Below are positions 55,200-60,520 of a stretch of 64,000 nt of DNA, piece by piece; position 1 is the stretch's first letter, and every line of letters starts with the position of its first letter. The translations under genes and the position numbers were made by a program. The notes under the pieces are model-generated. The model made no database searches, was not told the origin of the DNA, and saw nothing but the letters and a program-made list of their open reading frames with translations. This DNA comes from Candidatus Rokuibacteriota bacterium (GTDB taxonomy: Bacteria; Methylomirabilota; Methylomirabilia; Rokubacteriales; CSP1-6): positions 1 through 64,000 of the forward strand of contig JACPIQ010000051.1 in NCBI GenBank assembly GCA_016188005.1, written 5' to 3'.

Positions 55200-56950
55200 A
55201 TGATCCGATCCGCGCTCTCGATGACCAAGACGACCCCGCTCGCGGCCAGGGGCATGGTGGTGGCCGAGCACCCGCTGGGTGCCGAGGTGGGCGCAGCGAT
55301 CCTCGCCCGGGGCGGCAATGCCGTGGATGCCGCGGTGGCCACGGCCTTCGCCATGCCGGTGGTGGAGCCCTTCATGTCCACGCTGGCGGGCGGCGGCTCT
55401 TTCCTCATCCACCTGGAGCGGCGCGGGGAGACCGTGGCCATCGACGCCAACGTGGAGGCGCCGGCCGCCTGCCACGAGCGCTCCTACACGCTCGGCGAGG
55501 GGGTGTCCGACGACCTCTTCCCCTGGCGGCGCGTGGTGGACGACGCCAACGTGTTCGGGCCGCAGGCCGTGGCCGTGCCGGGCTCCGTGGCGGGGCTCTG
55601 CCTGACGCTCGAGCGCTACGGGACCATGGAGCTGGCCGACGTGCTGGCGCCCGCCATCCGGCTCGCGGACGAGGGCTTCGTCCCGGACTGGTACGTGAGC
55701 CTCACCACGGCGCTCTACACCCAGGAGCTGTCCGCCTTCCCCGAGACCGCGAGCACCTATCTGCGAGGCGGCCGGCACGTCTACCGCCCGCCGGCCCTCG
55801 CCGAGGGCGACCTCCTGCGGCAGCCCGAGCTGGCCTCCGGCTCATCGCCAAGGATGGGCCGTCGGCCTTCTACCGCGGCGCCATCGCCCAGATGATCCAC
55901 GAGGAGCTGGGGCTCAGGGGCGGCTTTCTCACGAAGGACGATCTCGCGGGCTACACCCCCCGTGTGCTCTCGCCGCTCCGCGGCTCGTACCGCGGCGTGG
56001 ACCTGGCCTTCACGCCAGGGGCCACGGGCGGGATCACGGCGCTCGAGATCCTGAACGTCCTCGCCCAGTTCCCTCCGGCGCGGGTGACCGCAAGCACCGC
56101 CGGAGGCCTTCACCTCCGTGCCGAGGCGGTGCGCGTGGCCTTCCTGGACCGCCTGCGCCTGCTGGGCGATGCGCTTCGCGTGACGGCGCCGTGGGAGGGG
56201 CTCGCCTCCCTCGCATACGCGCGGGACGTCGCGCGCGGGCTGAGACCTGGCGGGCCGCGGAGCCAGCGGACCACGCCCGACCCGTGGCGCTACGGCAGCG
56301 CCCCGGCGATGTCCGGGTCCCCGGCCCCGAGGCCCGTCAGCAGTGGGGGGAGCGCGGGGGCCATGTCCAGGCCCCGGCGCATGGCGGCCGGCTCGGACTG
56401 CACGACGCACGTGGGCGTGGTGGACCGCCAGCGCAACATGGTCTCCCTCACGAACACGGCCGTCTCGCTCTTCGGCGCCCGCATGGTGGTGCCGGGGACG
56501 GGCATCCTGCTCCAGAACGGCATGATCTGGTTCGACCCCGAGCCGGGGCGGATCAACTCCATCGCTCCCGGCAAGCGGCCGCTGGTCAACATGGTGCCGG
56601 TGCTCGGCTTCCGGAAGGGTGCGCCGGCCTTCACCCTGGGGGCGCCCGGCGGCAGGAAGATCGTGGCCGTGATTCCGCAGATCATCTCGAACATGCTGGA
56701 TGCGGGTGACTCGCCCCAGGCGGCCATGGAGGCGCCGCGGCTTCACACCGAGGGCGGGGACCTGTGGGTCGACGACCGCGCCGGGGCCGCGCACCTCAAG
56801 GCGCTGGCGCGGATGAAGCACCCGGTGGTGGCCAGGCACTCCTCCATCGGCACCTTCCACTTCGCGCGCCCGGTGGCCATCCGCATTCGCAAGACCGGGC
56901 TCGACGCCGGGCTCGACCCCCTGAGCGACGCCAGCGCCGCGGGCGCGTAG
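55200..56950 (+). CDS. Gamma-glutamyltransferase family protein, interrupted by one frameshift
   Basis: A 580-residue Ntn-hydrolase when repaired. The ATG at 55200 follows a strong AAGGAGG. The first frame reads GMVVAEHPLGAEVGAAILAR and GGNAVDAAVATAFAM up to QPELAS; the rest (RLIAKDGPSAFYRGAIAQMI) is in the next frame. One missing C in GCCTCCGGCTC near 55836-55840 explains it. The autocleavage and catalytic site is kept as CTTHVGVVDRQRNMVSLTNT, followed by LLQNGMIWFDP and GAPGGRKI. The family cleaves gamma-glutamyl bonds of glutathione or acts as acylase; the substrate is not known. Confidence 0.85.
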
Positions 56951-56956
56951 CGTCAC

Positions 56957-57259
56957 GTGCTCGAGGCGATCCGCGCCACCGCTCGAGCAGGGGAACATCG
57001 GTATACTGCTCATGCGCAGGGGCGCATGGCACACAGACGGATCACCGACGCGGAAGTGCGGCAGGCGCTCCTCGGTCCGGATGCCGAGGTCATCGAGGAG
57101 TACCCGGCTGACAAGTACAGTCCGAGCTGCCTCATCTTCGGGGTCACGGCGCAGAGGCGCGTTCTTCATGTCCAGGCCACCGCCCAGGGTGTGGTGGTGA
57201 CGGTGTACGAGCCAGACCCAGAGGAGTGGATAGACCTGAAGCGGAGGAGACCGACATGA
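56957..57259 (+). CDS. DUF4258 protein, candidate toxin of a toxin-antitoxin pair
   Basis: A 100-residue protein from a GTG six bases after the preceding stop. The pattern RYTAHAQGRMAHRRITDAEV, KYSPSCLIFGVTAQRRVLHV and VVVTVYEPDPEEW is that of DUF4258, a RelE-superfamily-like fold. It overlaps by four bases (ATGA) a YgiT-type zinc-finger gene, as in toxin-first pairs such as MqsRA. The toxin role is inferred from this pairing. Confidence 0.75.
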   Translation: MLEAIRATARAGEHRYTAHAQGRMAHRRITDAEVRQALLGPDAEVIEEYPADKYSPSCLIFGVTAQRRVLHVQATAQGVVVTVYEPDPEEWIDLKRRRPT

Positions 57260-57492
57260 GTCGCGAGTGTCCCGTGTGTCATCACGTGATGGACGCGAAG
57301 CGGATCCGACATGTTCAGACGTGGGACGATCGGGTCATCGTGTTCGAGAACGTCCCGGCTGAGGTCTGCTCTCGGTGTGGTGAAGTGCTGTTCTCTGGCC
57401 CTGTGGTGGACAAGCTGAACAGCCTGCTCTGGTCGACTGAACCGGCCCCGCGCACCATCGAGGCCCCCGTGTACGATCTCTCGGCTGCGTGA
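57256..57492 (+). CDS. YgiT-type zinc-finger antitoxin-like protein
   Basis: A 78-residue protein with two Cys-X2-Cys pairs, CPVCHH (5-10) and VCSRCGEVLFSGPVV (about 37-51), the YgiT/MqsA N-terminal zinc-binding domain. No helix-turn-helix follows, so it is shorter than MqsA and may neutralise the DUF4258 protein without strong DNA binding. Confidence 0.8.
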   Translation: MSRECPVCHHVMDAKRIRHVQTWDDRVIVFENVPAEVCSRCGEVLFSGPVVDKLNSLLWSTEPAPRTIEAPVYDLSAA

Positions 57493-57517
57493 GAACCTGA
57501 GAAGGAAAGGAGAGCGC

Positions 57518-57766
57518 ATGATCGAGGAGAAGGTCATCGCGTCGTGGAAGTACAGGAAGGGCGTGCTGGACCAGAAAACCGCGAGCCTGTGCTACCTGGC
57601 GGCGAACCTGGCGGCGGGCAACACCCACTGAGCCAGGCGCGACCTGGCAGGTGCCAGGGCCGCCGGGGCGACGGAGGACGAGGTGCGCGAGGCCATCAGC
57701 TTCGCCATCCGGGCCAATGCCGCCAAGACGCACGCCGACATCCTCAAGGTGTACGAGGCGCCATAG
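57518..57766 (+). CDS. AhpD/carboxymuconolactone-decarboxylase-like selenoprotein (in-frame UGA)
   Basis: An 82-residue protein read through a UGA at codon 38 (57629-57631). The ATG at 57518 has a strong AAAGGAGAG. Before the UGA: TASLCYLAANLAAGNTH; after it, in the same frame: ARRDLAGARAAGATEDEV, REAISFAIRANAAKTHADIL, to a TAG at 57764. The two halves together form one AhpD-like helical domain. The UGA falls on the second Cys of the family's CxxC motif (here Asn-Thr-His-Sec), the redox-active position. A SECIS-type hairpin lies exactly downstream. Selenocysteine insertion is therefore more likely than a nonsense mutation or a TGC-to-TGA error. A thiol peroxidase or reductase role is inferred. 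Confidence 0.7.
57632..57658 (+). promoter_or_regulatory. Bacterial SECIS-like hairpin
   Basis: Directly after the UGA come 17 bases and then the apical loop AGGT (57649-57652), closed by a perfect six-pair stem CCTGGC/GCCAGG (57643-57648 with 57653-57658). E. coli fdhF also has 17 bases between UGA and an AGGU-containing loop. A G in the first two loop positions and 16-37 bases spacing are the known requirements for SelB recognition. A competing hairpin (GCCAGG-CGCGA-CCTGGC, 57632-57648) could form instead. Confidence 0.65.
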
Positions 57767-57788: not shown

Positions 57789-58103
57789 ATGGCCGAGATC
57801 ACGCTCACCGCCGCCTTCTCGACGGTGCCCGGACCGGAGCAGGAGGCGATCAGGCGGCTCCTGACCGAGACCGTCGAGCAGATCGCCAGGGACGACGGGT
57901 CATTCACCCGGGCGAAGCTCGTGTTCACCGAGTCCGACGAGCGCTGCGGGCTCACGGCGGAGCTGGACGGGGTCAAGAAGGAAGGCGTGCCGCTGCAGAT
58001 CGACATCGATCAGCTCGAGGACGCCCAGACCGGCGCGGGCGCCCGCGCCCAGCTCAAGGAGTCGCTGCGGCTCTACTTCCGGCGCGTGATGGGCAAGGCG
58101 TGA
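57789..58103 (+). CDS. Small conserved-looking protein of unknown function
   Basis: A 104-residue protein starting MAEITLTAAFSTVPGPEQEA. It has an amphipathic N-terminal helix, a beta-rich middle (AKLVFTESDERCGLTAELDG, GVPLQIDIDQLEDAQ) and a C-terminal helix. I do not recognise the family. The gene follows the selenoprotein by 22 bases and overlaps the methyltransferase start (GTGA), so it belongs to the same transcription unit. Confidence 0.65.
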   Translation: MAEITLTAAFSTVPGPEQEAIRRLLTETVEQIARDDGSFTRAKLVFTESDERCGLTAELDGVKKEGVPLQIDIDQLEDAQTGAGARAQLKESLRLYFRRVMGKA

Positions 58104-58807
58104 GCCAGGACGCGGGCACCCTCCTTTTCGTCTACCGGGACTGCCTCTTCAAGGTGGCCGATGGCGTCCAGCCGCCGAAGGCGGGCTCGCTCCTCTTCTG
58201 CCGCCATCTGACCTTCCGTCCCGGCGAGTGGGTCGTCGAGATCGGCGCGGGCGTGGGGCTCGCCGCGGTGCTGGCCGCGCGCGCGGGCTGCCAGGTCATT
58301 GCCACGGATGTGGTGCCCGAGGCCGTGGAGTGCGTCCGGGCCAACGCCGCGCTGAACGGGGTGGCCGACCGGCTGGATGCGCGCCTCGGCGACTGTTACG
58401 ACCCGGTGCGGCGGCTCGAGTTCGACCTCATCTGCACGAGCCCGCCTCAGATGCCGACGCCGCCGGAGCGGGAGCGTGACGACCCGATGGCGGCCGCCGA
58501 CAACGGCGGGCTCGACGGATGGATGGTGCTCGACCGCGTCATCGAGGGCGCGCTGGCCCATCTCGCGCCGGGCGGGCGGCTCGTCTTCACCCTGTTCGAC
58601 TTCCTCGGCCGAGAGCGCGCCTTCGCCAAGCTCCGGGCGGCCGGGCTCGAGCCGTCGGTGCTCGGCAAGGACGCGCAGCCCTTCCCGCGGCTGGGCTACG
58701 AACGTCTCGAGCACATCCGCCTGCACGACCTCGAGCACACGCTGCCTGCAGACGGCTTGCCAGCCACGGTGGAGCGCTTCGTGATCCAGGGGGAACGGAC
58801 CCCGTGA
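58100..58807 (+). CDS. Class I methyltransferase of the HemK/PrmC-like (N-methylating) type
   Basis: A 235-residue methyltransferase from a GTG overlapping the previous stop. Motif I is VVEIGAGVGLAAVLAARAG (about 45-63), the acidic motif II is VIATDVVPEAVE, and motif IV is CTSPPQMPTPP (about 115), an NPPY-like variant. This pattern suggests methylation of a planar nitrogen such as a glutamine side chain or nucleobase. N-terminal substrate domain of PrmC is absent. The substrate is unknown. Confidence 0.82.
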   Translation: MSQDAGTLLFVYRDCLFKVADGVQPPKAGSLLFCRHLTFRPGEWVVEIGAGVGLAAVLAARAGCQVIATDVVPEAVECVRANAALNGVADRLDARLGDCYDPVRRLEFDLICTSPPQMPTPPERERDDPMAAADNGGLDGWMVLDRVIEGALAHLAPGGRLVFTLFDFLGRERAFAKLRAAGLEPSVLGKDAQPFPRLGYERLEHIRLHDLEHTLPADGLPATVERFVIQGERTP

Positions 58808-59562
58808 CGCGCCCGCGGGTTCTCATCGTCAACGCCGACGACTTCGGTCTCACGGCGGGCGTCAGCCGTGGGATCCTCCACGCCTGCCGCCACGGCATTG
58901 TCACGAGCACCACGCTCATCGCGAACCGGCCGCTGGACCCGGCGCTGCTGGAAGGCCTGCAGGACTCGGGGCTGGGCGTGGGCCTTCACGTGAACCTCAC
59001 CCTCGGCGCGCCGGTGTCCCCGGCCGCGCGCGTGCCCTCGCTCGTGGACGGCGAGGGGTGCTTCATCCGGGACGCGCGGGCCGTGGCCGAGCGGGTGAAG
59101 GTGGACGAGGCACGGATCGAGCTGGGCGCCCAGATCGACGCCTTCAGGGGGATCATGGGGCGCTTCCCGACGCACCTTGACAGCCACCACCACGTGGGGC
59201 GCCACGAGCCGCTGCTCGAGCTCATGCTCTTCTTCGCCCGCGCCATCAACGTGCCGATGCGGGCCCAGGACGCCCCCGGGCGTCAGGCGGCGCTGAAGGC
59301 TGGGGTGCGAACGCCCGATCACTTCATGGGCGAATCGGGGCCCGAGCCGTACTGGTCGCGCGAGCGGGTGCTCGAGCAGCTGCGGGTGCTGCCGGAGGGC
59401 GTGTCCGAGTTCATGACCCATCCCGGCTACTACGACGAGGATCTCGCCTACAGCCGCTACGGCAAGCAGCGCGAGACCGAGATCGAGGGGCTGACCGATC
59501 CCGCCGCCCGAGAGCTGATCGCGCGCGAGGGCATCCGGCTCGCCAGCTTCTCCAACCTGTGA
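58804..59562 (+). CDS. ChbG/YdjC-type carbohydrate deacetylase
   Basis: A 252-residue YdjC/ChbG family protein from a GTG that overlaps the previous stop by four bases. The metal-site motifs are present: VNADDFGLTAGVSRGI (9-24), LGVGLHVNLTLGAP (about 58-71) and THLDSHHHVGRHEPL (about 121-135), with MTHPGYYDED near the C-terminus. Characterised members remove acetyl groups from chitooligosaccharides; here the neighbouring ROK kinase supports an amino-sugar or glycan role. Confidence 0.88.
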   Translation: MTRPRVLIVNADDFGLTAGVSRGILHACRHGIVTSTTLIANRPLDPALLEGLQDSGLGVGLHVNLTLGAPVSPAARVPSLVDGEGCFIRDARAVAERVKVDEARIELGAQIDAFRGIMGRFPTHLDSHHHVGRHEPLLELMLFFARAINVPMRAQDAPGRQAALKAGVRTPDHFMGESGPEPYWSRERVLEQLRVLPEGVSEFMTHPGYYDEDLAYSRYGKQRETEIEGLTDPAARELIAREGIRLASFSNL

Positions 59563-59572
59563 CGGGTCCTCC

Positions 59573-60520
59573 GTGACGCCGACCCGGGCGGTGATCGGCG
59601 TGGACGTGGGCGGCACCACCACGGCGGCCGGGCTTGTCGGCGCCGACGGCGGAGTGCTCGCGCACCTCCAGGCAGCGACCCACGGGAGCGGCCCGGGCGG
59701 AGCACTGGCCAACTTGCTCGACCTGATCGAGGGCCTCGCCACGCTGGCGAAGGGGCGTGGGATCGAGCCCCGCGCCATCGGCATCGGAGTGCCGGGGACC
59801 GTGGACGCCGAGACCGGCATCATCGGCGCTGAGGCCCACTACGTGCCGGATCTGGCCCATGTGCCGCTCGCCGCGGTCGTGAGGGAGCGGACGGGCCTGC
59901 CCGTGTTCGTCGACAACGACGTCAACGCGCTCGCGCTCGGCGAGTGGATGTTCGGCGCCGGGCGCGGGGCAGCCTCGCTCGTGCTGCTGGCGCTGGGAAC
60001 GGGCGTGGGCGGGGGCATCATCCTCGAGGGCCGGCTCGTGCGCGGGCGCGGGGGGTACGGGGGCGAGCTCGGGCATGTGCCCATCGACTTCGACGGCCGC
60101 CCCTGCATCTGCGGCGGGCGCGGGTGCCTGAAGACCTATTGCTCCGGCACCGACATCGCGCTCGAGGGCTCGCGGCGGCTCGGCCGCATGGTGACGGCGC
60201 CCGAGGTGTTCCGGCTGGCCGCGGCCGGCGATGCGGTGGCCGAGGCCCTGGTGGCAGAGGTGTGCGAGGCCCTCGGGGCCGGGCTCGCCGTCATCGTCAA
60301 CGGGCTGAACCCGGAGCGGCTGCTGCTGGCGGGGGGCGTGGCCAAGTCGCTGCGCCCCCTCGAGACGCGCATCCGCGCCGCCTGCGCGCGCCACGCCTTC
60401 GCCGGCGCGTGCGCGACGACGGCCATGGAGATCATCTCGCTGGACAAGGGCGCGGCCGTCCGCGGCGGGGCGGCGCTGGCTCGCTACGAAACCCGACGAC
60501 GCGAGGGAGCGACCGTATGA
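59573..60520 (+). CDS. ROK-family sugar kinase (glucokinase-like)
   Basis: A 315-residue ROK kinase. The phosphate motif is GVDVGGTTTAAGLV (9-22), the catalytic Asp is in VFVDNDVNALALGEW (about 103-117), and the ROK zinc signature is HVPIDFDGRPCICGGRGCLK (about 167-186), with Lys where Glu is common. Likely substrates are glucose, N-acetylglucosamine or N-acetylmannosamine. Ten bases separate it from the deacetylase and it overlaps the dehydrogenase by four (ATGA). Confidence 0.9.
   Translation: MTPTRAVIGVDVGGTTTAAGLVGADGGVLAHLQAATHGSGPGGALANLLDLIEGLATLAKGRGIEPRAIGIGVPGTVDAETGIIGAEAHYVPDLAHVPLAAVVRERTGLPVFVDNDVNALALGEWMFGAGRGAASLVLLALGTGVGGGIILEGRLVRGRGGYGGELGHVPIDFDGRPCICGGRGCLKTYCSGTDIALEGSRRLGRMVTAPEVFRLAAAGDAVAEALVAEVCEALGAGLAVIVNGLNPERLLLAGGVAKSLRPLETRIRAACARHAFAGACATTAMEIISLDKGAAVRGGAALARYETRRREGATV

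Follow-up and report, generated by a model that had tools for sequence, protein, structure and literature searches.

In a 2026 inventory that covers 119 families and subfamilies of prokaryotic selenoproteins, those of the AhpD/carboxymuconolactone decarboxylase (CMD) type appear in the CxxU form only (PMC13188914). Among NCBIfam models, the nearest to the protein described here is the GSU3128 family (NF041047, "distant AhpD homolog"). Its members are likewise small, single-domain and CMD/AhpD-like, with selenocysteine (Sec) at the second Cys position, but their known motif is CxxU (PMC13188914, Table 1), whereas the present protein has NxxU and scores 45.6 bits, below the curated cut-off of 110. 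The next nearest models describe the ArsM-AhpD (NF041537) and MduS (NF045649) fusions. Here too a Sec-containing AhpD domain is linked to a methyltransferase; the two are, however, fused rather than operonic, the motif is CxxU and the methyltransferase is of another type, and our protein falls below both cut-offs. In Mycobacterium tuberculosis AhpD (1gu9), the reference for the fold, the site is Cys130-Ser-His132-Cys133, and a relay is completed by Glu118 and His137 (PMC3141380). The CMD protein TTHA0727 of Thermus thermophilus (2cwq) is the best PDB sequence match of our protein and also has a non-Cys residue at the Cys130 position (Ser70; PMC3141380), but retains Cys where the selenoprotein has Sec.

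The gene in question lies in a 64,000-nucleotide stretch (the window) of a Candidatus Rokuibacteriota genome. We consider it very likely a genuine selenoprotein gene, with Sec insertion driven by SelB and a hairpin, a CMD/AhpD fold and probably a one-selenol active site. This view is based on the UGA present in all orthologues (40 genomes), the fixed hairpin codons, the co-varied stem of a paralogue, the presence of the Sec machinery, a CMD match obtained only upon read-through, a confident CMD-like structure model, and five other CMD genes of the genome that also have UGA at the same residue. Judged from sequence, the identification as a selenoprotein is nearly certain. The features of the gene are:

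57507..57512, + strand: Shine-Dalgarno-like AAGGAG, 5 nt 5′ of the ATG (sequence)
57518..57766, + strand: selenoprotein gene, CMD/AhpD-like domain, 82 residues and a TAG stop (sequence, profile, structure model)
57590..57592, + strand: codon of Cys25, candidate resolving thiol (invariant in 40/40 orthologues; Val in the CTSU paralogue)
57620..57622, + strand: codon of Asn35, which replaces the resolving Cys of CxxC/CxxU (Asn 39/40, Thr 1/40)
57629..57631, + strand: Sec38, in-frame UGA matching Cys133 of AhpD (UGA in each of the 40 distinct orthologues)
57643..57658, + strand: SECIS upper stem-loop CCUGGC-AGGU-GCCAGG (pairing, fdhF comparison, conservation)

The frame starts with ATG, ends with TAG and is interrupted only by the TGA of codon 38; rechecking the positions bore out this description, which is that of the first-pass annotation. 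With Cys substituted for Sec, the full read-through protein matches Pfam CMD (PF02627) at 39.8 bits versus a cut-off of 23, whereas the two halves scored apart reach 13.2 and 16.1 bits. That a single CMD/AhpD-like domain spans the UGA, as proposed earlier, thus holds, the cut-off being passed by the read-through frame but by neither half. Ordinary gene callers (table 11) would cut the protein at the UGA. Were they right, and the UGA a true stop, the product would be a 37-residue peptide, and what follows would be a pseudogene or a fragment with its own start. This is very improbable, as both halves around the same UGA are conserved at the protein level across 40 genomes, the hairpin codons are fixed and the Sec machinery is present. 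Scans of the gene region found nothing above chance in Rfam and no promoter or terminator, and a search for plasmid and viral copies of the gene returned none.

The bacterial family is represented by 57 genomes, of which 40 have an orthologue; identities run from 81 to 99%, and every orthologue has one TGA in frame, at codon 38. Homologues with either Sec or Cys at this codon were sought: all have UGA and all keep the hairpin, no orthologue of the 40 family genomes has Cys there, and no close Cys homologue was found. These data also bear on whether the TGA could be an assembly or sequencing error for a real TGC, for which nothing speaks beyond the source being an assembled draft genome. The same TGA in independent MAGs from many genera, and in every orthologue, rules this out in practice and leaves the error a negligible chance, a judgement made from assemblies rather than reads. 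Of the 95 genomes searched in the phylum, those in which an NTHU gene was found all belong to the window's family. Beyond the phylum, a pattern search from the window protein, which reaches close relatives only, returned nothing but the same lineage, the named relatives with a match being Candidatus Rokubacteria and Methylomirabilota MAGs. A weak match with a TGA on another contig (C68, locus L012; E = 0.12) was judged to be due to chance.

The hairpin has a stem of 57643-57648 paired with 57653-57658 and an AGGU loop at 57649-57652, 17 nt from the UGA. Counting the U of UGA as +1, CCUGGC (+15..+20) pairs with GCCAGG (+25..+30), leaving AGGU at +21..+24. The spacing and loop had been likened to those of the Escherichia coli fdhF SECIS, with six perfect pairs, and the comparison stands: fdhF of MG1655 also has AGGT at +21..+24, and both have U at +17. 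In fdhF, U17 is bulged. In our gene it is, by contrast, paired (U17-A28), and the four-base loop is closed by six pairs. The 16-mer has a folding energy of -10.1 kcal/mol, and we regard the hairpin as a local structure because a longer stretch of 121 bases prefers another fold. Published bSECIS criteria are a spacing of 16-37 nt, a loop of 3-9 nt, a stem of 4-16 bp, G in the first two loop bases and MFE <= -7.5 (PMC13188914); the hairpin, at 17 nt, 4 nt, 6 bp, AGGU and the above energy, falls within all of them.

It should be noted that a lone hairpin in a GC-rich gene is unremarkable and by itself weak evidence. When synonymous codons were drawn for the same peptide following the codon usage of the window, six pairs at exactly the same place arose in 2-3% of the recodings (2.8% for these draws) and a looser SECIS-like hairpin anywhere in 26%. 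The significance of the hairpin therefore comes from its conservation across orthologues and not from the single occurrence. Across the 40 distinct orthologue sequences, the hairpin codons GAC, CTG, GCC and AGG (the last a rare one) are each fixed, and the loop is dominated by GCA (31/40) and GGT (30/40), codons rare in the window's genes; at four-fold sites outside the hairpin, 46% of the comparisons differ. Mean codon entropy is 0.28 bits within the hairpin versus 0.83 bits elsewhere in the gene. All sequences have the same codon in 4 of the 6 columns of the hairpin, compared with 3 of the 41 other columns (Fisher p = 0.003, indicative only since the sequences are related). A paralogue with the motif CTSU has a hairpin in the same register (GCUUCGC-GGCU-GCGAAGC). 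When the NTHU and CTSU families are taken together, all six pairs are paired in every sequence and two pairs have changed on both sides; sliding the stem partner by 1-3 columns lowers the pairing to 26-56%. The covariation is modest, because four of the six pairs never vary.

The machinery to use such a signal is present in the host genome, an assembly of 140 contigs and 5.37 Mb with 98% completeness and 4.7% contamination. A search for selA, selB, selC and selD found all four: contig C4 holds SelA, SelB and selC (tRNA-Sec; 69 bits, anticodon tca by ARAGORN) within 5 kb, and SelD has an in-frame TGA of its own. Sixteen CMD domains are encoded in this genome, and in seven of them a TGA stands in frame at the same residue. 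CxxU motifs account for five (CEYU twice, CFDU, CTSU and CTYU); the remaining two are NTHU, one being the window gene and the other, on contig C99, a copy with 96% identity to it. The CxxU genes are, in the host assembly (G000), at C44:43689-43937 (L160, CEYU), C120:66581-66820 (L161, CFDU), C63:86135-86344 (L011, CTSU), C28:77518-77736 (L166, CTYU) and C137:29283-29528 (L167, CEYU). From sequence, the genome thus seems rich in CMD selenoproteins, with six distinct ones.

The CTSU paralogue, found at L011 and at other loci of the same genomes, shares 41-47% identity, the Sec position and the hairpin register with the NTHU protein, but has Cys in place of Asn35 and Val in place of Cys25. It reaches other families and orders of the phylum and, at 50.3 bits, is also below the NF041047 cut-off. 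The second NTHU copy (C99:1-4248; L010, L171) has colinear downstream genes, and its stretch is closer to another species of the genus (about 93% identity) than to the window (87-88%); it is probably from a co-assembled strain and possibly a duplication. In a related genome there is a third CMD paralogue (L104:956-1228, G003:C330). It has two in-frame TGAs and a ULPU motif, most closely resembles the AhpD portion of ArsM-AhpD (61.6 bits) and has one hairpin, whose register fits the second TGA.

The predicted structure of the selenoprotein (mean pLDDT 90.8) consists of three helices and, at the N-terminus, a short pair of strands. By Foldseek, the nearest solved folds are the CMD/AhpD proteins O27018, RclX, TTHA0727 and AhpD (TM-score on query 0.53-0.74), with weak E-values and probabilities mostly near 1. 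Sequence and model together place the predicted fold in the CMD/AhpD-like class. In the active site, Asn35-Thr36-His37-Sec38, Sec aligns with Cys133 of M. tuberculosis AhpD, confirming the earlier placement of the UGA on a redox-active Cys, and His37 with His132; AhpD, however, has Cys130 where the selenoprotein has Asn, and in ungapped positions Glu118 and His137 correspond to Ser23 and Asp42. Of the relay only His132 is kept, and the Cys130/Cys133 pair is gone. Since Ser23 and Asp42 occupy the Glu118 and His137 positions, a peroxidase activity of the AhpD type appears doubtful for this protein.

With Asn at the Cys130 position, Sec would act without a neighbouring partner. The single-Sec site noticed at first pass is a property of the lineage (TTHU being the one exception to NTHU), and to it can now be added the invariant Cys25, 13 residues before Sec38 in the preceding helix. 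As Cys25 is invariant in the orthologues and Val in the CTSU paralogue, it goes with the Cys-to-Asn change, and the pattern suggests that it may be the resolving thiol; given the helical phase, its reach to Sec38 within one subunit is uncertain. In the mechanism that we propose, SelB with Sec-tRNA(Sec) would bind the hairpin just 3′ of UGA38, and insertion of Sec in vivo would yield the 82-residue single-domain protein. Sec38, as a one-selenol site, would attack a peroxide, a disulfide or another electrophile, and would then be reduced, with either Cys25 (from its own subunit or an adjacent one) or an outside thiol, thioredoxin for example, as the reductant. Tentatively, these would be CMD selenoenzymes specific to Rokubacteria. 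In that case, either replacement of Cys by Asn would have dissolved the CxxU pair, the role of resolving thiol passing to a Cys 13 residues upstream in a new selenenylsulfide architecture, or the AhpD scaffold would carry a peroxidase-like enzyme that truly works with one selenol.

The gene is followed on the same strand by others in a conserved order:

57789..58103, + strand: orphan ORF, 104 aa, next in the operon (matches neither Pfam nor NCBIfam)
58100..58807, + strand: SAM methyltransferase (MTS; HemK2/MTQ2-like, TIGR00537; profile match, gene order)
58807..59562, + strand: YdjC/ChbG-like gene, next in the conserved order (gene order)
59573..60520, + strand: ROK family gene, last tested of the conserved order (gene order)

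The methyltransferase scores 94.9 bits against TIGR00537 (cut-off 87), and its start overlaps the stop of the orphan ORF by 4 bp. Downstream on the same strand, the selenogene is accompanied by the orphan ORF at 47 of 49 loci and by the methyltransferase at 48 of 49, a count that includes some contigs twice and a few loci with a larger distance; the YdjC/ChbG and ROK genes come next wherever the flank is long enough. The orphan product is 72-100% identical across most loci and is retained in genomes without the selenogene. Upstream, a gamma-glutamyltransferase-like gene (55200-56950) is in two overlapping frames, split at about 55892, and relatives such as L058 have the parts in one frame; the split is a frameshift or an assembly error. 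Between it and the selenogene (56957-57492) is a toxin-antitoxin-like pair, DUF4258 and a YgiT-type zinc finger, found only in the window's genus.

By analogy, such an order could mean that the selenoprotein mainly works together with the methyltransferase, as its small Sec-containing partner, on substrates that are methylated, metalloid or organometallic, and not in general thiol/peroxide redox. The conserved same-strand order speaks for this, as does the nearness of the ArsM-AhpD and MduS models, but the operon enzyme is HemK2/MTQ2-like and not ArsM. That the methyltransferase also persists alone, where the selenogene is missing, shows that any such partnership is not obligate. We therefore treat the link as a lead only, and think such a role rather unlikely.

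The selenogene is missing from 17 genomes of the family, some incomplete, including all nine of one genus (g7) and several others. Most of the 17 retain tRNA-Sec and SelA, and therefore the absence does not reflect loss of Sec use. The methyltransferase is retained in 12 of the 17, usually beside the orphan ORF and the YdjC gene. At five such loci that could be read, the gap between the gamma-glutamyltransferase-like gene and the orphan ORF is 28-137 bases and holds no trace of the selenogene motif. An exchange of Sec for Cys was considered and rejected for these genomes, as no Cys form was found and the readable site is a short gap in a kept operon. Since the gap is empty and the operon mostly kept, the gene appears to be present or absent as a unit.

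We take NxxU to be a new variant of CMD selenoprotein because the inventory has CxxU only, the NF041047 cut-off is missed and NTHU was found in one family only. In the literature searched, the term NxxU was not found with selenoprotein, and the main text of the deep-Sep paper mentions neither AhpD, CMD nor the window's lineage. Deng 2026 reportedly has a Methylomirabilota MAG with 63 selenoproteins, and groundwater MAG surveys of this kind may already list the NTHU gene.

In closing, the finding adds a well-supported selenoprotein subfamily, with an NxxU active site that is unlisted, from an uncultured lineage. It provides a naturally occurring protein in which to ask whether Sec, placed in the AhpD scaffold, can function when there is no neighbouring Cys. 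It also presents a case in which a selenogene is lost as a unit from a fixed operon site, rather than through exchange of Sec for Cys.
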